A stretch of 32,019 nucleotides of DNA, taken from NCBI GenBank assembly GCA_000739535.1, contig DF820472.1, positions 195,394 to 227,412 of the forward strand, written 5' to 3'. This document shows, piece by piece, positions 3,744-18,929 of this stretch (position 1 is the stretch's first letter; every line of letters starts with the position of its first letter). A program made the position numbers and the translations under genes. The notes below the pieces were generated by a model. That model was given only the letters and a program-made list of their open reading frames with translations, did no database searches and was not told the origin of the DNA. Source of the DNA: Candidatus Vecturithrix granuli (GTDB lineage: Bacteria; Moduliflexota; Moduliflexia; Moduliflexales; Moduliflexaceae).

Positions 3744-4265
3744 ATGAAAGAAATATTATTTGCCGGAATCGGCGGGCAGGGGATTATTCTTTCAGCGAAC
3801 ATCCTGGCCCGCAGCGCCGCAGCAAAAGGCTTTTACGCCTGTCAATCACAATCTTACGGTTCAGAATCGCGCGGTACGGTTTCGCGTGCTGAGGTCGTCA
3901 TCGATCAGGAATTTATTGATTTTCCACATGTGGAATACGCCGACTTTTTTATTGCGATGGCTGAACCAGGGCTAAAAATGCTGCAAGAGAAAATTAAGCC
4001 CCATACCATTGTGCTGTATGACGGCTCTGTGTTCACACCGCAAGGGACGTTAGGCAAAGAAATGGTCAATGTCGAAGCCACGAAAATTTCCTTAAATCAT
4101 TTAGGACGGCCGCTGTTTGCCAATATTGTGATGTTAGGAGCATTGGTCAAGAAAAACGATCTGTTCAGCTTCGAAGACGTGGTGGCAGAATTAAAACAGA
4201 ACGTTCCGCCCAAAGCCGTTGAAGAGAATGTCCGCGCCCTGACCTTAGGTTACGAAGCCGTGTAA
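3744..4265 (+). CDS. korC: 2-oxoacid:ferredoxin oxidoreductase, gamma subunit (KorC-like)
   Basis: Gamma subunit, 173 aa, of the POR/KOR complex. The N-terminal GIGGQGIILSANILA motif and the SQSYGSESRGT segment near residue 36 are hallmarks of this family; together with alpha and beta they build the CoA-binding catalytic complex. Length is normal. The start follows the palindrome closely and has only a weak ribosome site, so coupling to the upstream gene or structure in the leader may matter. It is the last gene of the operon; a terminator-like hairpin starts 9 bp after the stop. Confidence 0.9.
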   Translation: MKEILFAGIGGQGIILSANILARSAAAKGFYACQSQSYGSESRGTVSRAEVVIDQEFIDFPHVEYADFFIAMAEPGLKMLQEKIKPHTIVLYDGSVFTPQGTLGKEMVNVEATKISLNHLGRPLFANIVMLGALVKKNDLFSFEDVVAELKQNVPPKAVEENVRALTLGYEAV

Positions 4266-4273
4266 TACCTATC

Positions 4274-4306
4274 AAAACCGAGTTTTTGAGAAAAACTCGG
4301 TTTTTT
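4274..4306 (+). terminator. Rho-independent terminator of the CoA-transferase/kor operon
   Basis: A perfect 14-bp stem (4274-4287 with 4291-4304) and a 3-nt loop are followed by a T-run ending at 4306. The stem core CCGAG/CTCGG flanked by A and T tracts also occurs, in variant form, at 4446-4478, 11643-11680 and 26970-27002, so the terminator seems to be built from a dispersed repeat. Confidence 0.85.
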
Positions 4307-4445
4307 CCTGCAAATAACGGATTTTTTATTCACAAGAATATTTAGCCTTGACAGAATCTCCTTTTCCTTTCATGACAATTCATAAACCATTGTAATTGAT
4401 AATTTCATAGATGCTATTTTTCAGTGATCATAAGAGATCCAGCGT

Positions 4446-4478
4446 AGAAACCGGGGTTTTAAGAAAAACTCGGTTTCT
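4446..4478. repeat. GAAACCG/CGGTTTC hairpin in the tyrS leader
   Basis: AGAAACCG at 4446-4453 pairs with CGGTTTCT at 4471-4478, with a further A/T-rich inner stem. It lies 19 bp before the tyrS ATG. It belongs to the same repeat family as the terminator 140 bp upstream, but lacks a T-run. It might attenuate tyrS or be a neutral repeat. No T-box signature was found around it. Confidence 0.6.
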
Positions 4479-4497
4479 GAGACGGGAAGATTATATT

Positions 4498-5769
4498 ATG
4501 CAACGCACAGTGATTGATGAATTGAGAGAACGCGGCTTTATTTTTCAAATGACAGAAACCGGGGTCGAAGAAGCGGCGAAAAATGAAAAGCTGATTGTTT
4601 ATGTCGGTTTTGACCCGACCGGTGCCAGCTTGCATGTAGGGCATGTGATTCCGATTATGGGTCTGGCGCACTTACAGCGATATGGTCACCAACCAATTGC
4701 GCTGATTGGAGGAGGAACGGCGCTGATTGGGGACCCCAGCGGTAAACAAACAGAACGTGCCTTGCTGCCGAAAGAAACCATTGAGGCCAATGCGGAAAGC
4801 ATTAAAGAACAGATGAAACATTTCTTGCGTTTCGAAGGCGAAAACCCGGCCTTGATGCTGAATAATGCGGATTGGTTATGTGAACTCAACTTAATTGACT
4901 TTATGCGTGATGTAGGCAAACATTTTTCATTGGGGGCCATGTTAGCCAAAGATTCTGTGAAATCCAGACTTGATCGCGAACAGGGCATTTCTGTCACCGA
5001 ATTTTTATATGCTCTCTTACAATCGTACGATTTTATGTACCTGAGCGAACATCACCACTGCAATATGCAGATGGGCGGCTCGGATCAATGGGGCAATATT
5101 ACGGCTGGTATCGAGTATATCCGTCGCACCACAGGGAAAACTGCACATGGCGTCACTTTTCCGCTGCTCACCAAAGCCGATGGCGGAAAATTCGGCAAAA
5201 CCGAAAGCGGGGCGATCTGGCTCGATCCGAATCTGACCTCGCCCTATGAAATGTATCAATTCTGGCTGAATACGGACGATCGCGACGTGGTGAAATTTTT
5301 GAAATTTTTCACCTTTCTGCCCCTGGAACACATCTACGAGTTAGAAAAAGAGGTGCAGAACAGCCCGGAAAAACGCAACGCGCAAAAAACCCTGGCCTGG
5401 GAATTTACCACCCTGGTGCATGGCGAGAAAGCTGCGAAAGCTGCGCGTGGGGCTTCTGAACTCTTATTTGGGACAACTCCGGACGACTTAAGCGAAGAGA
5501 CCCTGGCCTACGTCGAGAAAATTATCCCTAGCAGCCGGATCAGCCGCGATCAAATGACGGCGGGGATCGCCATGCCTGATGTGCTTGTGCACACGCAATT
5601 AAGCCCCTCAAAAGGGGAAGCGCGACGCTTAATCAATCAGGGCGGCGTGTACGTCAATAACCAGCGCCGCAACCTGGATGAGGACTTGATCCAGGCCGAT
5701 CTCTTGCTGAATACCGCCGTGCTCTTACGAGCAGGCAAGAAAAAATATCATTTATTGATTGCCGAATAA
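4498..5769 (+). CDS. tyrS: Tyrosyl-tRNA synthetase
   Basis: Class I aminoacyl-tRNA synthetase, 423 aa, charging tRNA-Tyr in the cytoplasm. The HIGH motif appears as HVGH near residue 46, after YVGFDPTGASLH. The KMSKS motif appears as KFGKTESG near 240, the form usual in bacterial TyrS. GGSDQWGN is the tyrosine/tRNA recognition segment. An S4-like RNA-binding domain fills the last 65 or so residues (SPSKGEARRLINQGGVYVNN). Length is standard. ATG 4498 matches the family start and follows GGGAAGA; the frame is open to 4411 only through the leader repeat. It is probably transcribed alone, as terminators or hairpins lie on both sides. Confidence 0.96.
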   Translation: MQRTVIDELRERGFIFQMTETGVEEAAKNEKLIVYVGFDPTGASLHVGHVIPIMGLAHLQRYGHQPIALIGGGTALIGDPSGKQTERALLPKETIEANAESIKEQMKHFLRFEGENPALMLNNADWLCELNLIDFMRDVGKHFSLGAMLAKDSVKSRLDREQGISVTEFLYALLQSYDFMYLSEHHHCNMQMGGSDQWGNITAGIEYIRRTTGKTAHGVTFPLLTKADGGKFGKTESGAIWLDPNLTSPYEMYQFWLNTDDRDVVKFLKFFTFLPLEHIYELEKEVQNSPEKRNAQKTLAWEFTTLVHGEKAAKAARGASELLFGTTPDDLSEETLAYVEKIIPSSRISRDQMTAGIAMPDVLVHTQLSPSKGEARRLINQGGVYVNNQRRNLDEDLIQADLLLNTAVLLRAGKKKYHLLIAE

Positions 5770-5828
5770 ATAACAGGTGGAATATGAACCTGTCAAAATG
5801 AATGTAGCCAGGACGAGCATTGAGGCAT

Positions 5829-5863
5829 AAAAAAACCTCCAGGAATGACTGATTCCTGGAGGT
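5829..5863 (-). terminator. Rho-independent terminator of rpsU
   Basis: An 11-bp perfect stem (5836-5846 with 5852-5862, core CCTCCAGGAAT) with a 5-nt loop is followed on the minus strand by seven T residues. It is 33 bp past the rpsU stop codon. The plus strand shows no T-run, so it serves rpsU, not the convergent tyrS. Confidence 0.85.
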
Positions 5864-5895
5864 GTGCTATGGCGATGCACTTACATATCTGACGA

Positions 5896-6081
5896 TTAGC
5901 TATTTCTGAACTTTCGCTGCAATTTTAAGGCTTTCCGTCTGCGAGCTTCACTCGGCTTTTCATAAAAACGGTTTTTGGTAATTTCATTCTTTAAGCCTTC
6001 TTTATTAAACTTATTTCTCAGGATATAGAGCGCTTTATTAATATCGCCGTCAACGGTAACCTCTACCTGAATTTTTCGCAT
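5896..6081 (-). CDS. rpsU: 30S ribosomal protein S21
   Basis: Basic small-subunit protein of 61 aa (MRKIQVEV...) with the S21 pattern: a short beta start, then DINKALYILRNKFNKEG, then KNRFYEKPSEARRRKALK. S21 sits at the platform near the 3' end of 16S rRNA and helps initiation. I prefer ATG 6081 because GGGGAGG lies 11 nt upstream; a GTG at 6093 would add four residues but nearly overlaps that ribosome site. It has its own terminator and lies 105 bp after clpC on the same strand. Confidence 0.93.
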   Translation of the reverse strand: MRKIQVEVTVDGDINKALYILRNKFNKEGLKNEITKNRFYEKPSEARRRKALKLQRKFRNS

Positions 6082-6186
6082 AGCACACTTCACCTCCCCT
6101 TTTCAACATAAGGTCATAAAATCTTGACCGTCGGGAAAACGCAAGAAAAAAGATGAAATATTTGGATTTTCTTGAACTGGATCGCG

Positions 6187-8643
6187 TTACATCCTCAGCA
6201 TCTCATACAAAAGCTGCTCATCGCTCTCATGCACTTCATAGCCAAGCGTGTCATCCGCATTCAAACGAATATGAATGTGCTGGTGTTCAGAAATGTGATC
6301 ATTCAGCAGTTCTTCTGCCAACATATCTTCAATCGTTTTTTGAATCAAGCGACGGAGTGGTCGGGCGCCATACACAGGATCGTAGCCCTGTTGAGCCAGC
6401 CAGCTTTTTGCTTCACTGCTCAGGGTAATGGTGAGATCTTTTTCCTTCATTTGGGCATTGATCTCTTTCAGCATAATATCCACAATATTCCGAATGTGGT
6501 CTTCTGTCAGAGCGTGAAAGGTGATGACCTCATCCACGCGATTCAAGAATTCCGGATTAAAGACACGCTTTAATTCTCCGGTCACCTGTTCTTTCATCTT
6601 CTGATAATTCAAATCTTCCGATTCCTGATGAAATCCCAGATGTGAACGTTTTTGGATCATCTTTGCGCCGACGTTTGACGTCATAATAATCACGGTATTT
6701 TTAAAATCGACCACATGTCCGTAGCTATCGGTCAATTGCCCGTCTTCCATGATTTGGAGCAGAATATTAAAGACATCCGGGTGCGCCTTTTCAATTTCGT
6801 CGAACAGCACAATCGAATAAGGGCGACGCCGCACCTTTTCCGTCAACTGGCCGCCTTCATCATAGCCAATGTAACCAGGTGGAGCCCCAATAAGCCGCGA
6901 GACGGCATGACGTTCCATATATTCAGACATGTCAATGCGAATCAGCGTGTTTTCATTGCCAAACAAATAGGTCGCTAAAGCCCGGCTGAGTTCGGTTTTT
7001 CCCACGCCGGTCGGCCCCAGGAAAATAAAGACACCAGTAGGACGTTTCGCGTTCTTAATACCGGTTCTGGAGCGTCGAATAGCCTTGGCAATGGCACTAA
7101 TCGCCTCATCCTGTCCGATGACGCGCTGGTGAAGTTCTTCTTCAATGTGTAGTAGTTTCTCGATCTCGCTTTCTTCAATTTTCGTCAACGGAATGCCAGT
7201 CCATTTTGAGACTACATGCGCCACGTCATCTTCGCTGACTAAGGGAAGTTGCTGATCTTGCTGATGTTGCAATGATTCTCTGACCATTTCTAAATTTCGC
7301 CGCAGCTCGCGCTCTTTATCGCGGAGTTCAGCAGCTTCCTGAAAATCTTGCGACCACACCGCCTGATCTTTTTGTAAAGTAATTTCCTGGAGCAAGGCTT
7401 CAACCTTCAGTAATTCTGCTGGATAGCGATACCCCTGGAGTTTGCGTAAAGAACTCGCTTCATCAATCACATCGATCGCTTTATCAGGAAAGTGATGGTC
7501 AGGAATATATTGCTCAGACAAACGCACGGCTAATTTGATGCTGCTATCCGGGATGCGGACTTGATGGTAGGTTTCATACGTTTCTTTCAATCCCTGGAGA
7601 ATGGCGATAGTATCTTCTGCTGTGGGTTGGAACACCTGAACCGGCTGGAAACGTCGGGCCAGGGCGCCGTCTTTTTCGATGTATTTGCGATACTCATCAA
7701 GCGTGGTAGCCCCAATACACTGAATTTCTCCTCTGGAAAGTGCAGGTTTCAACATGCTTGAGGCATCAAGGGATCCCTGAGCCGAACCAGCGCCCATAAG
7801 GGTATGAATTTCATCAATAAACATGATGAATTGGCGTTCAGATGCAATCAAGTCTTTCATGATCGCCTTGAGGCGTTCTTCAAATTGTCCTCGATACATG
7901 GTTCCGGCAACAATTCCGGCCAAATCGAGGGTAATCAGCTTTTTATCCAGCAGAATCTCAGGTACATCGCCGTTGACAATTCTTTGCGCCAGACCTTCAA
8001 CAATCGCTGTTTTCCCAACCCCTGGCTCGCCTAACAAAATTGGATTATTTTTCGTTCGGCGGCTCAGAATCTGGATAATCCGGGCAATTTCTTTTTCGCG
8101 CCCAATTACCGGATCAATTTTGTTCTCAGCGGCTAATTGAGTCAGATCCGTACTAAACTGACGTAGGGCCTTATATTCGGTTTTTTTCTTTTTAGTTCCG
8201 CGACGGGTTTCTCCGAGCAAATCGAGGATTTTTTCACCAAGTTGTTCTTCGGTGACGCCATACTCACGTAAAATCAAGGCCGCCAGATTGTCGCCTTCTC
8301 GAAGAATTCCTAAGAGCAAATGTTCCGTTCCAACATAATTATGCCCCATTTCTCGTGAAAGCTCTATGGCTAAACGAAGAACTTCTTTCGCAGATGGACT
8401 GAAGGGAATGTTGTTTGTCTCTGGTTCGAATACTCCACGATTCAGGCGGTGTTCAAGATCAATGCGCAAATCATGAATATCTATACCCAATTCTCGCAAC
8501 GCATGAATTCCTACCCCTTTCTCATCATGGAGGGCAGCTAACAAGAGATGTTCACAATCCAGGGACGCATGTCGAAAACGCAACGCTTCTTCACGTGCAA
8601 TAATAATCGTTTTTCTGGCCCGTTCTGTAAAACGGTCAAACAT
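6187..8643 (-). CDS. clpC: ATP-dependent Clp protease ATPase subunit ClpC
   Basis: Hsp100 unfoldase, 818 aa, that threads proteins into the ClpP protease. Domain order is standard: two Clp_N repeats (about 1-145), first AAA+ module with Walker A GEPGVGKT near 205 and an IDEIH Walker B, a middle region with a UVR-type helix ([11 protein letters not shown] near 430), and a second AAA+ module with GPTGVGKT near 550 followed by the C-terminal D2-small domain. The UVR motif and short middle domain favour ClpC over ClpB and ClpA. ATG 8643 has AAGGTGAG 5 nt upstream; a GTG two codons earlier is less likely. No mcsA/mcsB/ctsR genes are adjacent, unlike the classical Firmicutes operon. Confidence 0.95.
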
Positions 8644-10966: not shown

Positions 10967-11620
10967 ATGGAACAACCCAAAAATCATTATTGGCAATTAC
11001 GATTAGTACAGGTCAAACAGGCCTTAGAAAACAATAACTTTGACGTGTTCATTGCCGATTCGGCAGTGGAAGCGAAACGGCTGGTGTTAGAGGAGATTCT
11101 GCCTCATATCGAGGCCGCCAGCCTTTCCTGGGGCGGATCAATGACCGTCAGAGCGACCGGTGTGTTAGACGCTTTGATGAAAGAGGACAAACTAAGTATT
11201 TTGAATCCTGACGATTCAGCGCTCTCGCGGGAAGAGAAGTTGGAACTGCGCCGCAAAGCCTTGTTGACGGATCTCTACATCACGGGCACCAATGCGGTGA
11301 TCGAAACTGGGCAGTTAGTGAATCTGGATATGTTTGGCAATCGGATCAGTGCCATTACCTTTGGCCCGAAACATGTGATCATTATGGTCGGGCGCAATAA
11401 AATTATGCCGGATATGGAATCGGCTATGCTACGTATCAAAGAATTTGCGGCCCCAATGAATGCCATGCGCCTGGACATGAAAACGCCTTGCGTCCAGACC
11501 GGAGATTGTGAAGAGTGTAGCAGCCCGATGCGGATTTGCAACTCCTGGGCTATAACGGAAAAATCTTTCCCAAAGGGACGGATTAAAGTGGTGTTGATTA
11601 ATGAAGATTTAGGGTTGTAA
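10967..11620 (+). CDS. LUD domain protein (DUF162, LutC-like)
   Basis: 217-aa protein of the LUD family (LutB/LutC domain; PF02589 by family knowledge). The core motif block SLSWGGSMTV near residue 56, DLYITGTNAVIETGQLVNLD near 104 and FGPKHVIIMVGRNKI near 137 are typical. The C-terminus has a Cys-rich segment (Cys at TPCVQTGDCEECSS and RICN) that may bind metal or a cluster; stand-alone LUD proteins of anaerobes often carry it. Relatives act in lactate oxidation, but the LutA and LutB partners are absent here, so no reaction should be assigned. GGAGG lies 7 nt before the ATG. A GAAACCGG hairpin follows. Confidence 0.85.
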   Translation: MEQPKNHYWQLRLVQVKQALENNNFDVFIADSAVEAKRLVLEEILPHIEAASLSWGGSMTVRATGVLDALMKEDKLSILNPDDSALSREEKLELRRKALLTDLYITGTNAVIETGQLVNLDMFGNRISAITFGPKHVIIMVGRNKIMPDMESAMLRIKEFAAPMNAMRLDMKTPCVQTGDCEECSSPMRICNSWAITEKSFPKGRIKVVLINEDLGL

Positions 11621-11642
11621 GATATGATTGAAGGAATCTGGC

Positions 11643-11680
11643 ATAAGAAACCGGATTTTTCGAAACCCCCGGTTTCTTAT
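11643..11680. repeat. GAAACCGG/CCGGTTTC inverted repeat
   Basis: ATAAGAAACCGG at 11643-11654 and its perfect 12-bp reverse complement at 11669-11680 enclose a 14-nt T/C-rich loop. It lies between the LUD and hydroxyacyl-CoA dehydrogenase genes. It belongs to the family also seen at 4274, 4446 and 26970. No T-run follows it. Confidence 0.7.
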
Positions 11681-11715
11681 ACGTACAGATTTCATTTACC
11701 AGGGAGGAATGGGGT

Positions 11716-12606
11716 ATGGAAGTGAATACTGTTGCAATAGTCGGTGGAGGCAGAGTGGGGTCTGGTATTGCTATTGTCACCGCAAAAGCAGGCTTGAAGA
11801 CGATTCTAACAGAAAAGACCAGGGAACTGGCGGATGCTGCTATCGAACGCATTACGCGTGAGATTGATATGCAAATTGCACGCTGGGGCATGACAGAATC
11901 GGAGAAGAAATTTATCCTGGGGAATTTAGATGTGGGAGATGATTTGGAACGCTCGCGTCAGGCTCAACTTGCGCTTTGCTCGATTCCCAGTCTGCTGGAA
12001 GAACAGAAACAGATTTTTCGACAATTGAACGCCATCTGCGGAGCAGACACCATTTTTACCTCAAATAGCTCTGTGCTGAGCATTACTGAGTTGGGGGCCG
12101 AACTCGATCATCCTGAAAATATGTTAGGGCTGCACTTTCTGCACCCGGTACTGAAGACCAAACTGGTAGAAATCGTACGCGGTTTTGCCACTTCGGATCA
12201 GACGTATGAGACGGGCAAAGCCTTTGTAAAAACCCTGGGGAAAAAGGGGATCGAAGTGTTTGAATCGCCTGGATTTATTACGACTCGCGTGATGTTCCCG
12301 CTGATCAATGAAGCCATGAATGCCTTAATGGAGGGAATTGCCAGCGCAGAAGATATTGACAGTGCTATACAGCTCGGTTATAACATGCAGATGGGACCTC
12401 TGGAACTGGCGGATCGCATTGGGTTAGATCGAGTACTGGTGGCTATGGAACATTTATTTCGAGAATTTGGCGAACAAAAATTCCGCCCCTGTCCGCTTAT
12501 CAAAAAACTTGTACGTGCTAAACATTTTGGCGCGAAGACAGGCACCGGATTTTTCAGCTATGACAAAGAAACAGGAAAGAAACTCAGCTCTTCTTTCCAA
12601 CGATAA
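11716..12606 (+). CDS. 3-hydroxyacyl-CoA dehydrogenase (3-hydroxybutyryl-CoA dehydrogenase type)
   Basis: 296-aa single-function NAD(P)-dependent dehydrogenase interconverting 3-hydroxyacyl-CoA and 3-oxoacyl-CoA. The Rossmann glycine loop is GGGRVGSG at residues 10-17. TSNSSVLSI around 115-123, the His140/Glu152 pair in HFLHP...VEIVRG, and the C-terminal GPLELADRIGLD helix fit the short Hbd/PaaH family. HFLHP replaces the usual HFFNP, a mild divergence. GGAGG lies 8 nt before ATG 11716. It may work in butyrate-type fermentation or beta-oxidation, but no thiolase, crotonase or acyl-CoA dehydrogenase lies in the window. Confidence 0.9.
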   Translation: MEVNTVAIVGGGRVGSGIAIVTAKAGLKTILTEKTRELADAAIERITREIDMQIARWGMTESEKKFILGNLDVGDDLERSRQAQLALCSIPSLLEEQKQIFRQLNAICGADTIFTSNSSVLSITELGAELDHPENMLGLHFLHPVLKTKLVEIVRGFATSDQTYETGKAFVKTLGKKGIEVFESPGFITTRVMFPLINEAMNALMEGIASAEDIDSAIQLGYNMQMGPLELADRIGLDRVLVAMEHLFREFGEQKFRPCPLIKKLVRAKHFGAKTGTGFFSYDKETGKKLSSSFQR

Positions 12607-12627
12607 TAGCGCGGGGGCACCATCTGT

Positions 12628-12676
12628 GTACCGCGAAACTCCGATTTCGCGGACGCGAAAAACAATTTCGCGCTAC
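12628..12676. repeat. TTTCGCG-family double inverted repeat upstream of the lipase gene
   Basis: Two CGCGAAA/TTTCGCG pairs in tandem (12632-12651 and 12654-12672), with outer ends GTACCGCGAAA and TTTCGCGCTAC. The right end and the bases after it (TTTTCAAGGGAGG) match the element at 1-46 and its right flank. Here the trailing GGGAGG acts as the ribosome binding site of the lipase, so the repeat supplies or abuts the translation signal. Confidence 0.65.
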
Positions 12677-12695
12677 CTTTTCAAGGGAGGAAATG

Positions 12696-13517
12696 ATGGC
12701 AGCAAGTGGATCGCATGAAACCATTTCCAGAATTGCAGGCCCAATAGAGCAATGGGGACTATATCGAAAATCGTTGCTCTTTGCGGAACTTTCCAGAATC
12801 GCCTATCTTCGACAGGAACCTGCTGCTGCTATGGCGCAACAGATTGGATTGCCGCAGGTTGAGTTCTTTGATGTTGACGGCGCTCAATCGTACTTGTTTT
12901 CAAATGAGTATGATCTGGTCTTGGCCTGTCGAGGCACTGAACCCCGCGAATGGAATGATGTAAAGGCCGACATCAACGCCTGGCCGGTGGTGGCGGAGAC
13001 CCTGGGACGAGTCCATCGCGGATTTAAAAAAGAAGCGGATGACTTATGGCCGGTACTTGAACAGCGACTGCTTGAAAACACAAAAGAACTTTGGTTATGT
13101 GGACACTCCCTCGGCGGAGCCATGGCAACCATCTACGCTGGCCGTTGTAAAATGTCGTATATCAAAACAAACCCGGTAGAATTATTTACTTATGGCAGTC
13201 CGCGAGTCGGCACGAAAAAATATGTTGCGCATTGCACCGTGAAACATATCCGATGGGTGAATAATAATGATATTGTCACCCGCGTTCCGCCGACCTGGAT
13301 GGGCTATCACCACGTTGGTGAAGAAATGTATTTAAACGCCTATGGCAAGGTTCGAAAGCACACGCCCTATCAGCGTTTGAAAGATCGATGCCGGGGATTT
13401 GTCATGGGGTTGAAGGCGGGTAAGATTGATAATTTCTCGGATCATGCCATTGCGCGTTATGTCGAATATCTGTATGATGTCTTGATAGAATCCGGAGAAC
13501 TACCTGCTCCGTTCTGA
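12696..13517 (+). CDS. Lipase class 3 family protein
   Basis: 273-aa alpha/beta hydrolase of the fungal-type class 3 lipase family. The nucleophile elbow GHSLGGA places Ser at 138; Asp192 in NNNDIVTRVPP and His250 in SDHAIARYV complete a plausible triad. The CRGTEPREWNDV segment near 78 fits the oxyanion region. There is no signal peptide, so it is probably cytoplasmic or exported by an unseen route. Two ATGs lie together at 12693 and 12696; the second has the better spacing (5 nt) to GGAGG. The substrate is unknown. It is the last plus-strand gene before a convergent set. Confidence 0.88.
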   Translation: MAASGSHETISRIAGPIEQWGLYRKSLLFAELSRIAYLRQEPAAAMAQQIGLPQVEFFDVDGAQSYLFSNEYDLVLACRGTEPREWNDVKADINAWPVVAETLGRVHRGFKKEADDLWPVLEQRLLENTKELWLCGHSLGGAMATIYAGRCKMSYIKTNPVELFTYGSPRVGTKKYVAHCTVKHIRWVNNNDIVTRVPPTWMGYHHVGEEMYLNAYGKVRKHTPYQRLKDRCRGFVMGLKAGKIDNFSDHAIARYVEYLYDVLIESGELPAPF

Positions 13518-14858: not shown

Positions 14859-16118
14859 TTAGAGATCTTGTGCAGTTGTGCAAAAAAAGCGATCTTCCAG
14901 GTATTTGGGATCATAATTGCGCACGTCATAATGCACCCAGGTAGTTGCTCCGGCTTTTGCGGATTCCAGAGATTTGCGATTCGGCGTGCTCCAATCAAGC
15001 ACGGCTTTCGCTGTTTCGATAATTTTCTGACGGATTTTCTCACAGCGATCCTCGTCTTTGAGTTTATCATCTTTGACAGGTTTCGGATCAAGATCCACGG
15101 CTTTTCCTTGATGATTCGTGGTGTTCATCCCTTTCTGTTCGGCATAAACGCTGCAACGATAGCCGGAAGAAATGGGAAAAGTGTAATCGGGATGGTAAAA
15201 CATTACTGCTCTTACGGCCCACAATAACATGCGATGAATGCCTGGATATTCGTATAAATTGTTGCGCTCTGTTCGTTTCCCATCGCGATATTGTCCTTTA
15301 AATTTTCCCTGACCAAAACCGGAACATTTACCGCAAGGACATTTCAACACTTCAAAATCAATTGGATAGCGTTTCCCGAAGTCCTCGATAGATTTCAACG
15401 TATCTTGATCAGCGATACCGGTCGGGTCTTTCATCTGCATGACATCACGTTGAAATTGTTTCACCTGTGTTTCTGTGCCAGAGCCGAAATCTCCATCCGC
15501 CACAGTGCCGCTAAATCCGGCTAAGCGAATTTGTAGTTCCTGGACATCGGCCCCTTGCATTCCTTTTTGCATGATCCGCTGTCCGTATTGAACCGCTTGA
15601 CCGCGCGCAATGGCTGAAATTTCCCGGCTCACAATACGCGACTCTATGATTCCATGCCACAGCGCGCACTCTTTTTCGCGGCGCTCACACAATCCGCGTG
15701 CACGTTGACCGCCCGAATAGACCCAACGACGCATTTGTCCCGGCACGTCCTCATATTGCCCTATATTCAATACTTTGAGTAATGTACTCTTTTTAAAGGC
15801 ATGGCTGCCGACGTTCAACGCAAAAGAGGCTAACGCGTCAAATTGATGTTGGGCCAGTGTCACCTTGATGGACTTATTCAGCGTTCTCTCGACCTCTTTC
15901 AGATCCTGATCCAGCAGGTTCAAAACCTGGTGCTCTGTCAATCCATCAGCATATCTGACGGCCTTTCCTTGGATATAAATTTTACCGGAGGAAAGTTCAT
16001 CTTTGGTGAGCAGATGCCCGATCCCAATCGCCTGTTTCCCGGCAATATCCAGATAGACCCGGCATTCACATCCTTCCCATTCTATGAGGAGCGTTCTCCC
16101 CTGTTCACTGAGATTCAT
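14859..16118 (-). CDS. Modular peptidoglycan hydrolase: GH24 lysozyme, peptidoglycan-binding domain, M15-like peptidase
   Basis: 419 aa with three modules. Residues 1-155 are a phage T4-type (GH24) muramidase: Glu15 and Asp24 have the right spacing, followed by IGIGH at 31-35, but the residue at the catalytic Thr position is Ala30. Residues 185-245 are a PG-binding repeat (GMQGADVQELQIRL, DGDFGSGTETQVKQFQ). Residues 250-419 look like an M15 metallopeptidase: His336 and Asp342 in NHQGKAVDLD and His396 in WVHYD as zinc ligands, with a CPCGKC segment at 260-265. The His-to-Asp spacing is one residue shorter than the usual HxxGxAxD. There is no signal peptide, as in endolysins. GAGGA lies 7 nt before the ATG. 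No other phage gene is nearby. Confidence 0.85.
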   Translation of the reverse strand: MNLSEQGRTLLIEWEGCECRVYLDIAGKQAIGIGHLLTKDELSSGKIYIQGKAVRYADGLTEHQVLNLLDQDLKEVERTLNKSIKVTLAQHQFDALASFALNVGSHAFKKSTLLKVLNIGQYEDVPGQMRRWVYSGGQRARGLCERREKECALWHGIIESRIVSREISAIARGQAVQYGQRIMQKGMQGADVQELQIRLAGFSGTVADGDFGSGTETQVKQFQRDVMQMKDPTGIADQDTLKSIEDFGKRYPIDFEVLKCPCGKCSGFGQGKFKGQYRDGKRTERNNLYEYPGIHRMLLWAVRAVMFYHPDYTFPISSGYRCSVYAEQKGMNTTNHQGKAVDLDPKPVKDDKLKDEDRCEKIRQKIIETAKAVLDWSTPNRKSLESAKAGATTWVHYDVRNYDPKYLEDRFFCTTAQDL

Positions 16119-16522: not shown

Positions 16523-17254
16523 TCAGTGAAGCAGACTTGGAGTGTCAAAGCTCAGCTTTGACAGCAAAAGCCTGGCTTTCGCACTCCTGATGTTTATAGG
16601 ATGGGAGTGGCAGGCGGATTGAAAATAGTGTAAAATTTTCAACTCATGTTCCAGAGTTGCGGCATCGCTCGTATGAACTGGCGTCATACAGGTCACAATA
16701 TTTTGCCCCTGAACCCATACCCGAAAAAATTCTACTCCGATTTTTTTTCTGATCCGGGTTTTTAAGCGTCTCAAGATCGCTTCATTGCCGTTTTTGATAT
16801 ACAACACTTTCATCTCCTGACATGTTGCAGGATAAAATAATTCCAGCAGTTTCAGCCAGAGAAAGCCTTCAGGCAGATGGTGGCGATAATCATGAATTTT
16901 GGCAATATTGAAGAGATGCGCGGCGATCTCGAAAAAATTCTGATAACATTCTTCTCTGGAAATTTCTAGATGAAATTGGGCGATTAACGCTTTAATCTCA
17001 GTTTCTTTGTGCAGGCCGCTCGGTTTGATCATTACAAAGAATTCGTGCGGTTCCGGCAGAGGAATGTCTTCTATGTCTTGCGGATCAAGCGGCGCAAAGG
17101 TGTATTGAGGAAGCGTATCTAAGGTGATTGTTGTAAACTGGCGCAAAATAAATTCTACGATAAACTGTTTCCAGGAGAGATTTATCATGCGCCACCAGGT
17201 TCGTTTGATCAACTTGTGTAGAAATTTGACTCTAGCATAAGAGCTTATGTTCAT
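16523..17254 (-). CDS. Divergent nucleoside diphosphate kinase-like protein
   Basis: 243 aa; I recognise no close family. Residues 72-211 follow the order of NDP kinase motifs: FVMIKPSG (73-80) for the IKPDG strand, EMKVLYIKNGNEAILRRL (147-164) for the VLEGENAV helix region, and TPVHTSDAATLEHELKIL (191-208) for NxxHGSDS..AEREI, with His194 at the place of the phosphohistidine. Many other kinase residues differ, so catalysis is uncertain. ATG 17254 overlaps the end of the radical SAM gene by 23 bp with no clear ribosome site, suggesting coupling; Met23 at 17188 is an alternative. The last 16 or so codons are read from a dispersed repeat (16539-16587). A shared role with the upstream gene is likely (inference). 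Confidence 0.6.
   Translation of the reverse strand: MNISSYARVKFLHKLIKRTWWRMINLSWKQFIVEFILRQFTTITLDTLPQYTFAPLDPQDIEDIPLPEPHEFFVMIKPSGLHKETEIKALIAQFHLEISREECYQNFFEIAAHLFNIAKIHDYRHHLPEGFLWLKLLELFYPATCQEMKVLYIKNGNEAILRRLKTRIRKKIGVEFFRVWVQGQNIVTCMTPVHTSDAATLEHELKILHYFQSACHSHPINIRSAKARLLLSKLSFDTPSLLH
16539..16587. repeat. GGAGTG..CACTCC repeat overlapping the 3' end of a gene
   Basis: GGAGTG at 16539-16544 pairs with CACTCC at 16582-16587, with inner pairs AAAGC/GCTTT and a local TCAAAGCT/AGCTTTGA hairpin. It belongs to the repeat family at 13538-13623. Here it lies inside the reading frame of the NDP-kinase-like gene and supplies its C-terminal tail (RSAKARLLLSKLSFDTPSLL region). Confidence 0.7.
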
Positions 17255-18929
17255 AGCATTGTTGCAACGTCGTCACATACATCCCTCGAAATGGGCCACA
17301 CTCTCCGGCGCGGATCATCTGCACAGAATCGCATGAGGAAAACTGGGAACGCCCGTAGCGAGGTTCGGTTAACGCCGTATAAGCATCTGATAGGGCAACA
17401 AGTTCGGCCATCGGCCAATTCAATTGAATCCGTTGATAGCCGGAGCCATCAATCCGTTCATGGTGCTGAAAGGCGATCTTACCTTCTACCTGATAGCCAA
17501 GTTGTTCCAGCATTTCTTTGCCATATACAGTGTGCTGGCGCACTAACTGCTTGTGATGCGGCGGTAAGTGGTGCTGACCGGCCAGGTGGCGAATAGCGGC
17601 ATGGCTTTTGCCAATGTCGTGCAATAACGCCGCACGCATCAAATAGTATACTGTCAGAAAGTGCCAGTGCAATTTCTTGCCGAGATAGCCAGCGTTCAAT
17701 GCTGTGCGTTTCAGATGCAATTCTAGGGGCAGTAATGATCTTTCCGCTTGAAACTGTTGAAAGACCTGTTGAATCGGGGTTTCCTGCAAGATCGTTTCCA
17801 GAACGACCGGCGGCTGAAACAGCGGATACTCAAAGAGATCCTGCAAACATCTCTGCACCATCAGATTATACTCTCGGGTGACATCGCAGCAATAGTTTCT
17901 GCAAATCGGGTCCCCCATACAGTTGTGTTTGAGAAACCAACGCCAGATTTTTTCATTTTTATCAGGATCAGAAACAGAAGCCATCGGCTGACCTCGCTCA
18001 CGGATATAGATATTACAGGGATACAAATATTGACCACCGACTGTCCGTTCGTCGAGCACCACATAACATTTTTCAATCTCCGTGTGTTCCAGCCCCCGCA
18101 CGTCAAAAAAATTGTTGATACGGTAGCGTAAGAACGGATATTCTTTTGACGCGATTTGAAGTAGCTGGGGTTGAATGATTTGATGATAATATTTCTGTTC
18201 TTCTAGCGTAAATTGCTCCTGAGTCACCGGAATCAGACGAATGTCATCGGGGTGCAGATTGGTCAGAAAATCAGCGACAATCTCCGGCAGCATAGGAAAA
18301 TTCAACTTCGTAATAGCCAGACAGATCACCACTTTAAGGTTATATGTCCGTTTTAACGCCATCAGCCGCCGAATGTTGGCGCTGACTCTTGCATAAATAT
18401 CCTCTCGTCCCCCCATTTGGCTGGCGATAGCCTCATTATGGGCATCTAAGGAGATCGAGAGATATTTTAAGCCATGCCGTACCAGTTCCCAATAATGGTC
18501 AAAATCAGCATAGCCGTTGGTACTCATAGAGACTTCAAATTGGTATTTTTGGGCGATTTTCAAATAATCCAGGATATACGGGCATACCGTCGGTTCCAGC
18601 CCGGTTAGATGCAGATATTTGAGACGGCGCGAGCGCCATTCCTGCAACACTTGTTCAAATTCTTCTAAGTTAGGAGCATCCATGCCAGAAGCCAATCCTT
18701 TACAATACATGCAGTGCAGGTTACACTGGTTCGACACAAAATACACTCCACGGCCATTGAGCGCAAAATTAAGATTTGAAGGCGGATGAATGAACTGTTC
18801 GATCAGTTTTTTGGCTCGCTCCCCATCCAGGGAATACAAAGTTGACGTTAATCCATTCAACACGCTTTGAATGGGAATTTGGCAAAGAGATGCATAAAGT
18901 TTGTAGCGGTTAAACAATTCATTTCGCAT
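17232..18929 (-). CDS. Radical SAM / SPASM-like protein fused to an HD-GYP domain
   Basis: 565 aa. The radical SAM cluster motif CNLHCMYC (Cys69/73/76) follows a 60-residue N-terminal region. The SAM-binding GGE motif is altered to TGLEP (109-113), and SISLDAHN follows at 158-165. Cys288, Cys305 and a CX5CX3C set (337, 343, 347) resemble a SPASM auxiliary-cluster region with one ligand missing. Residues 420-565 are HD-GYP-like: LLHDIGKS (His437/Asp438), VRQHTVYG (His466), HHERIDGSGY (489-498) with the final Pro replaced by Gln, and SDAYTAL. HD-GYP enzymes usually hydrolyse cyclic di-GMP; radical SAM/SPASM enzymes usually modify peptides. ATG 18929 starts the conserved part; the frame is open to 19133 through unlikely sequence. 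It overlaps the NDP-kinase-like gene. Confidence 0.85.
   Translation of the reverse strand: MRNELFNRYKLYASLCQIPIQSVLNGLTSTLYSLDGERAKKLIEQFIHPPSNLNFALNGRGVYFVSNQCNLHCMYCKGLASGMDAPNLEEFEQVLQEWRSRRLKYLHLTGLEPTVCPYILDYLKIAQKYQFEVSMSTNGYADFDHYWELVRHGLKYLSISLDAHNEAIASQMGGREDIYARVSANIRRLMALKRTYNLKVVICLAITKLNFPMLPEIVADFLTNLHPDDIRLIPVTQEQFTLEEQKYYHQIIQPQLLQIASKEYPFLRYRINNFFDVRGLEHTEIEKCYVVLDERTVGGQYLYPCNIYIRERGQPMASVSDPDKNEKIWRWFLKHNCMGDPICRNYCCDVTREYNLMVQRCLQDLFEYPLFQPPVVLETILQETPIQQVFQQFQAERSLLPLELHLKRTALNAGYLGKKLHWHFLTVYYLMRAALLHDIGKSHAAIRHLAGQHHLPPHHKQLVRQHTVYGKEMLEQLGYQVEGKIAFQHHERIDGSGYQRIQLNWPMAELVALSDAYTALTEPRYGRSQFSSCDSVQMIRAGECGPFRGMYVTTLQQCYEHKLLC

Follow-up and report, generated by a model that had tools for sequence, protein, structure and literature searches.

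A radical-SAM enzyme joined to an HD-GYP-type domain in Candidatus Vecturithrix granuli, and its relatives in huge phages

A single gene of Candidatus Vecturithrix granuli appears to encode a radical-SAM enzyme and an HD-GYP-type domain in one chain, raising the questions of whether this fusion is genuine, how rare it is and what its two halves might do together. We analyzed it within a stretch of 32,019 nucleotides (the window; contig DF820472.1, positions 195,394 to 227,412). The gene lies on the minus strand, a point absent from the sequence-only reading that had singled it out, as were the phage radical-SAM family and the NDK-like partner gene described below. It runs from an ATG at 18929 to a TAG ending at 17232 as one open frame of 565 aa with no internal stops. 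The features of the locus are as follows.

17232..18929, minus strand: coding sequence of the fused radical-SAM enzyme and HD-GYP-type domain, 565 aa (open reading frame, Pfam and PDB matches)
18210..18752, minus strand: radical-SAM core, residues 60-240 (PF04055, alignments, model pLDDT about 90 or more)
17874..18077, minus strand: SPASM/twitch-like C-terminal cysteine region, residues 285-352 (family alignment; 39-41% identity to the same region of L095, the bacterial relative)
17286..17744, minus strand: HD-GYP-type phosphohydrolase domain, residues 396-548 (HD_5, E 1.8e-8; 4mcw, E 2e-8; site residues)
16523..17254, minus strand: coding sequence of the partner, 243 aa, with its first 23 bases lying inside the 3' end of the fusion gene (open reading frame)
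16610..17047, minus strand: probable divergent nucleoside-diphosphate-kinase (NDK)-like domain, partner residues 70-215 (L095 homology, PDB searches)

The claim that radical-SAM and HD-GYP parts share one chain was borne out: within the single frame, Pfam recognized Radical_SAM (PF04055) at residues 65-195 (E 3.4e-15; 57 bits against a cut-off of 29.5) and HD_5 at residues 411-540 (E 1.8e-8; 34.7 bits against a cut-off of 27.2), both above their curated cut-offs. The closest solved chains of the C-terminal part were the HD-GYP phosphodiesterases 4mcw (E 2e-8) and 4r8z and the 3'3'-cGAMP-specific phosphodiesterase 5z7c and, because these PDB matches are HD-GYP phosphodiesterases, the HD-GYP assignment is not due to chance. 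The 8.38-Mb draft genome holds one copy of the fusion protein; its other matches there were separate, partial ones to HD or radical-SAM proteins. Since there is a single observation of the fusion, in a draft assembly whose contamination is estimated at 10.75%, we retained as a rival explanation a chimera, in which two genes were joined by assembly or sequencing error, or a fusion in decay. Besides the draft state of the assembly, the somewhat higher GC content of the HD part (0.50 versus 0.44) and the absence of a second copy from every set searched speak for it. However, the frame is uninterrupted and scores well for a domain at either end, the neighboring genes span a GC range that includes both values, and the partner gene overlaps the HD end; we consider a chimera highly improbable.

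The radical-SAM half contains a CX3CX2C motif at residues 69-76 (CNLHCMYC), TGLEP at 109-113, STNG and SISLD, the first two as the sequence-only reading had described. The cluster cysteines C69, C73 and C76 lie inside the PF04055 domain, as expected of the radical SAM superfamily. In place of the SAM-binding motif GGEP, which is present in the aligned viral relatives and in the bacterial relative, the window protein has TGLEP, which is unusual by this comparison. The GGEP motif varies across the radical SAM superfamily, so membership of the window protein rests on the cluster motif and the fold. Further downstream, C288, C305, C337, C343 and C347 are in register with the SPASM-like cysteines and give the CX5CX3C signature; C288, C305, C343 and C347 are invariant across the family, and C337 is shared by the window protein and a minority of its relatives. 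The set is partial, as had been proposed: the first Cys of CX2CX5CX3C is absent, and T351 stands where relatives carry a further Cys. The full seven-Cys SPASM pattern (CX9-15GX4C ... CX2CX5CX3C ... C) does not fit the window protein, in which the spacing is G-X5-C.

We aligned the HD site with HD-GYP proteins, including several of the same genome, and compared it with the mutational study of PmGH (4mcw), an HD-GYP c-di-GMP phosphodiesterase (PMC4159591). Like PmGH, the window protein has an HD fold by sequence, an HD motif (residues 437-438) and the HHExxDGxGY signature; it reads HHERIDGSGYQ at 489-499, so that the terminal Pro of HHExxDGxGYP is replaced by Gln (GYQ for GYP), again as noted before. 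PmGH H189, H221, D222, K225, H250, H276, H277 and D305 correspond to H405, H437, D438, K441, H466, H489, H490 and D515, meaning that seven of the eight metal ligands and the active-site Lys K225 are kept. The earlier description of a near-complete HD-GYP site stands to that extent; it does not extend to E185 (P401 in the window protein), the putative catalytic D183 (L399) or D308 (T518), which are altered together with P286 (Q499). Unlike PmGH, moreover, the window protein has its HD domain joined to a radical-SAM enzyme and not to a sensor. E396 was considered as the E185 ligand and rejected, since E185 lies four residues before H189, that is, at P401 here (PMC4159591). E185 is the one HD-GYP ligand that varies naturally, and in PmGH activity was substantially lowered by D183A, K225A and D308A but not by P286A (PMC4159591). 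Given these kept and changed residues and the PmGH mutant data, the HD domain of the fusion is probably metal-binding and hydrolytic, and activity on c-di-GMP should not be assumed.

Among the sets searched, the window protein was the only one in which an HD domain is joined to this radical-SAM family. An HD domain was found in or near the radical-SAM gene in none of 41 IMG/VR contigs, nor in the one other bacterial relative, and full-length relatives with an HD domain were absent from a scan of genome contigs (which returned HD-only matches), four genomes of the phylum, plasmids and viral contigs. 'Rare' here means rare in these genome, plasmid and viral sets. Within the literature library searched, no paper combined radical SAM, HD-GYP and fusion, and none brought radical SAM and domain fusion together with nucleoside diphosphate kinase. 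The interpretation offered by the sequence-only reading is partly supported, in that the fusion is real at the sequence level and looks rare in the sets searched. Its suggestion that the HD part could hydrolyze a cyclic dinucleotide or another phosphodiester is backed indirectly by the GGDEF genes adjoining the viral relatives (see below) and weakened by the changed D183 and E185 positions.

The radical-SAM half, by contrast with the complete fusion, has relatives in huge phages. In a tblastn search of phage records it matched uncultured phages of 735 kb and 485 kb (E 1e-38 and 3e-26), and profile scans placed the family in 41 distinct IMG/VR contigs. Searched with a typical viral member, the phage records gave only three matches, from two distinct genomes, and the plasmids none. 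When a profile was run against 385 genomes from across bacteria, it matched only the window gene and a second gene, L095; the family is nearly absent from the sampled bacteria. A radical-SAM profile sweep of 398 genomes from the phylum of one HD-only match, run without a positive control, returned nothing. Sequence searches did not match the family to any described one, and NCBIfam, Pfam and PHROGs hold no specific model for it, the nearest being generic MoaA, tungsten-maturase and viperin models, far below cut-off. Most members share an N-terminal GFYTLSD.RA, C[NT]F.C.YCR, GGEP, S[IV]S.D, P[IL]L..R, VR, HFPC.IY.RE and D.IC...CLD. The unnamed phage proteins (LR756501, LR745208, IMG/VR) resemble the window protein in core, C-terminal cysteines and VRG and PC.IY.RE motifs, at 29-34% identity, but they lack the HD domain, keep GGEP intact and possess the last Cys of CLDVC. 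Two viral copies were irregular. In L013 (LR745208.1, 7764-8822) the CX3CX2C stretch is missing while the rest is well conserved, which may reflect a deletion, an assembly error or an inactive copy, and in L058 (IMGVR 3300035698_011578, 4083-6387) the family is spread over three separate open frames, perhaps owing to an insertion, an intron or decay.

The viral members have GGDEF, sulfotransferase-like or glycosyltransferase genes as neighbors. Of the 41 viral contigs, 12 carry a GGDEF gene (PF00990, E about 1e-12) downstream of the radical-SAM gene and on its strand; in ten of these the two genes are no more than 1 kb apart or overlap, and in L017 and L041 the overlap with the radical-SAM gene is a few bases. 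When four GGDEF-bearing contigs were scanned whole, this neighbor was the sole GGDEF gene in each. The radical-SAM domain of the 735-kb phage is preceded in the same chain by a GGDEF-like domain (hhalign pairwise E 0.005), which shows the GGDEF motif order (DPIFGVYTRKY, IVDFERIGKLN, FFSGDEL). The main rival to the reading that we favor is a cyclic-dinucleotide signaling module in which the phage GGDEF protein would make the nucleotide and the HD-GYP domain would hydrolyze c-di-GMP or 3'3'-cGAMP, thereby controlling the radical-SAM reaction. It is favored by the repeated association of one radical-SAM family with domains for synthesis (GGDEF) and breakdown (HD-GYP), and by the nearest solved relatives of the HD part, which are phosphodiesterases of c-di-GMP or cGAMP. 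However, the positions of D183 and E185 are replaced, GYP has become GYQ (although P286A was mild in PmGH; PMC4159591), the viral GGDEF proteins are short (132-142 aa), and no sensor domain is present. We regard such a module as possible but doubtful.

Other genes also recur beside the viral members. In phages L013 and L050 the next gene downstream of the radical-SAM gene is glycosyltransferase-like, and further neighbors encode a sulfotransferase-like P-loop protein (Pfam E 0.015) and a conserved protein of 90-120 aa, which recur downstream in L014-L055 (for example, L055:1707-2297 and L055:2257-2544). The small protein carries the motifs W.AGSL.ELG ... RPK...AVMF ... FWTHLT..EF. Near the radical-SAM gene of the 735-kb phage (L012; LR756501.1), many small ORFs end alike in a tag-like sequence, roughly W(K)..(K)RT.LMD.MLN (for example, 5422-5760, 6678-7118, 7096-7437, 11509-11952, 11942-12403 and 12387-12731).

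An AlphaFold model of the fusion protein had high confidence at about residues 61-350 and low confidence in the HD part (pLDDT mostly under 60), whose half of the model is unreliable because HD homologues could not enter the alignment. The best fold match of the radical-SAM half was BlsE (7vob; VIA Z 25.7 over 285 residues at 3.1 A, VIA-align), followed by DesII (Z 23.3), SkfB (22.5), CteB (19.8), MoaA (19.4), anSME (19.2) and viperin (17.5); such a ranking inside one shared fold is only a hint. DesII is a TDP-sugar enzyme, and both it and BlsE have sugars linked to a nucleoside or nucleotide as substrates. We know of no HD, GGDEF or NDK partner of BlsE. The nucleoside-linked sugar on which BlsE acts is cytosylglucuronate, which it decarboxylates (PMC3715490). 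Identity between BlsE and the window protein is 15%, and the NCBIfam BlsE model gave 26 bits against a cut-off of 400; MoaA TIGR02666 likewise gave 57.4 bits against 284.

Two further explanations bear on this fold. The protein could be a peptide-modifying, RiPP-type radical-SAM/SPASM enzyme, in which case the HD and NDK-like parts would be passengers, either regulatory or unrelated. The SPASM-like cysteines and the matches to SkfB (Z 22.5) and to CteB and SuiB (about 19-20) agree with this proposal, yet no RiPP equivalog reaches its cut-off, and a non-systematic look recognized no precursor-like small gene adjoining the window gene; we judge it quite unlikely. Alternatively, it could be a viperin-like antiviral enzyme making a chain-terminating nucleotide, whose phosphate level would be set by the NDK-like and HD partners. 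Prokaryotic viperins (SAND) share with the window locus the radical-SAM core, a weak pVip match (PADLOC; E 4e-19), a fold match (Z about 17.5) and a nucleotide-kinase theme, the kinase partners being paralleled by viperin-kinase pairs. However, the pVip match spans the radical-SAM core only, NCBIfam NF038283 gave 55.7 bits, far below its curated cut-off of 180, the window protein has a SPASM-like Cys region and an HD fusion, and the family occurs mostly in phages. To our knowledge, C-terminal SPASM-like cysteines are not a viperin trait, and we consider a viperin-like role very unlikely. Filing of the window gene as a defense system, for which pVip was the best match at 67 bits, was rejected.

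We then considered the partner gene, which is probably translationally coupled to the fusion gene. Its product matched no family, with no PF00334 match up to E 10, its structure predicted from the single sequence had a pLDDT of 39 and was set aside, and 9 of 300 shuffles scored equally well against a home-made NDK profile. The domain keeps an IKP motif and the histidine of VHTSD. Its homologue was found in L095, where a frame break divides the radical-SAM gene and the second frame encodes the SPASM-like region (41% identity to the window over 83 aa, E 2e-16) and then a domain homologous to the partner (BLASTP E 1e-5). In this locus the NDK-like domain directly follows the radical-SAM part without an HD domain, and no HD gene was found nearby. 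A PDB search with the L095 domain ranked one multicystatin match above nine distinct NDK sequences, the latter aligned across 125 residues at E 0.2-0.5, and a two-domain profile of partner and L095 matched, in the whole PDB, only chains of NDK homologue 5 (E 1.5, a weak score). Because these weak scores converge and are joined by motif order and shared linkage, the partner and L095 domains likely have an NDK-like fold. In resemblance to nucleoside diphosphate kinases (PF00334), the partner domain has the IKP motif, the VHxSD histidine and the overall order, but it lacks a Pfam match and the Asn before the His is not at its usual place; a separate, normal ndk is present in the same genome. At L096:8357-10010 (G521:C157), the site of the only other bacterial relative found, the frame break falls inside the radical-SAM region and a GroEL gene adjoins.

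Most recognizable partner domains belong to nucleotide chemistry, and for this reason we favor, tentatively and at somewhat less than even confidence, a small unnamed radical-SAM family acting on a nucleotide, nucleoside or nucleotide-sugar, whose member in the window is joined to a metal phosphohydrolase of the HD-GYP type, its translation probably being coupled to that of an NDK-like protein. As judged from their sequences, HD-GYP (window), NDK-like (window and L095) and GGDEF (viral) partners would all handle nucleotides, and the top fold matches, BlsE and DesII, ahead of MoaA, anSME and viperin, hint in the same direction. On the motif, a [4Fe-4S] cluster at C69/C73/C76 would cleave SAM. 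Fold and conservation then suggest that the partial barrel would hold a phosphorylated nucleoside or sugar, from which the 5'-deoxyadenosyl radical may take a hydrogen atom, and that the site would be closed by a cluster at C288/C305/C343/C347. If domain identity is a guide, the NDK-like partner would bind or transfer phosphate, and the HD domain would hydrolyze the substrate or product at a phosphate ester or phosphodiester bond. Against this reading, the peptide maturase SkfB ranks nearly as high in a fold common to many radical-SAM/SPASM enzymes, the NDK-like protein keeps the catalytic-type His but has lost other NDK positions, D183, E185 and D308 of PmGH are changed in the HD domain and TGLEP is unusual; among bacteria, the family was found in just two genomes, with a broken frame in the second copy.

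A bolder version, which we hold unlikely, is that the family makes or alters a modified, possibly cyclic, nucleotide, so that phages with a GGDEF synthase and bacteria with HD-GYP and NDK-like proteins would form an undescribed nucleotide-signal or counter-signal system. That GGDEF, HD-GYP and NDK-like domains are recurrently paired with a single radical-SAM family points to nucleotide or nucleotide-sugar radical chemistry beyond MoaA and viperin, and suggests a testable function for a gene carried by some of the largest known phages. Adjoining the fusion operon, the minus strand of the window also encodes, at 14859-16118, a phage-type lysozyme that also has a peptidoglycan-binding domain and an additional C-terminal part.
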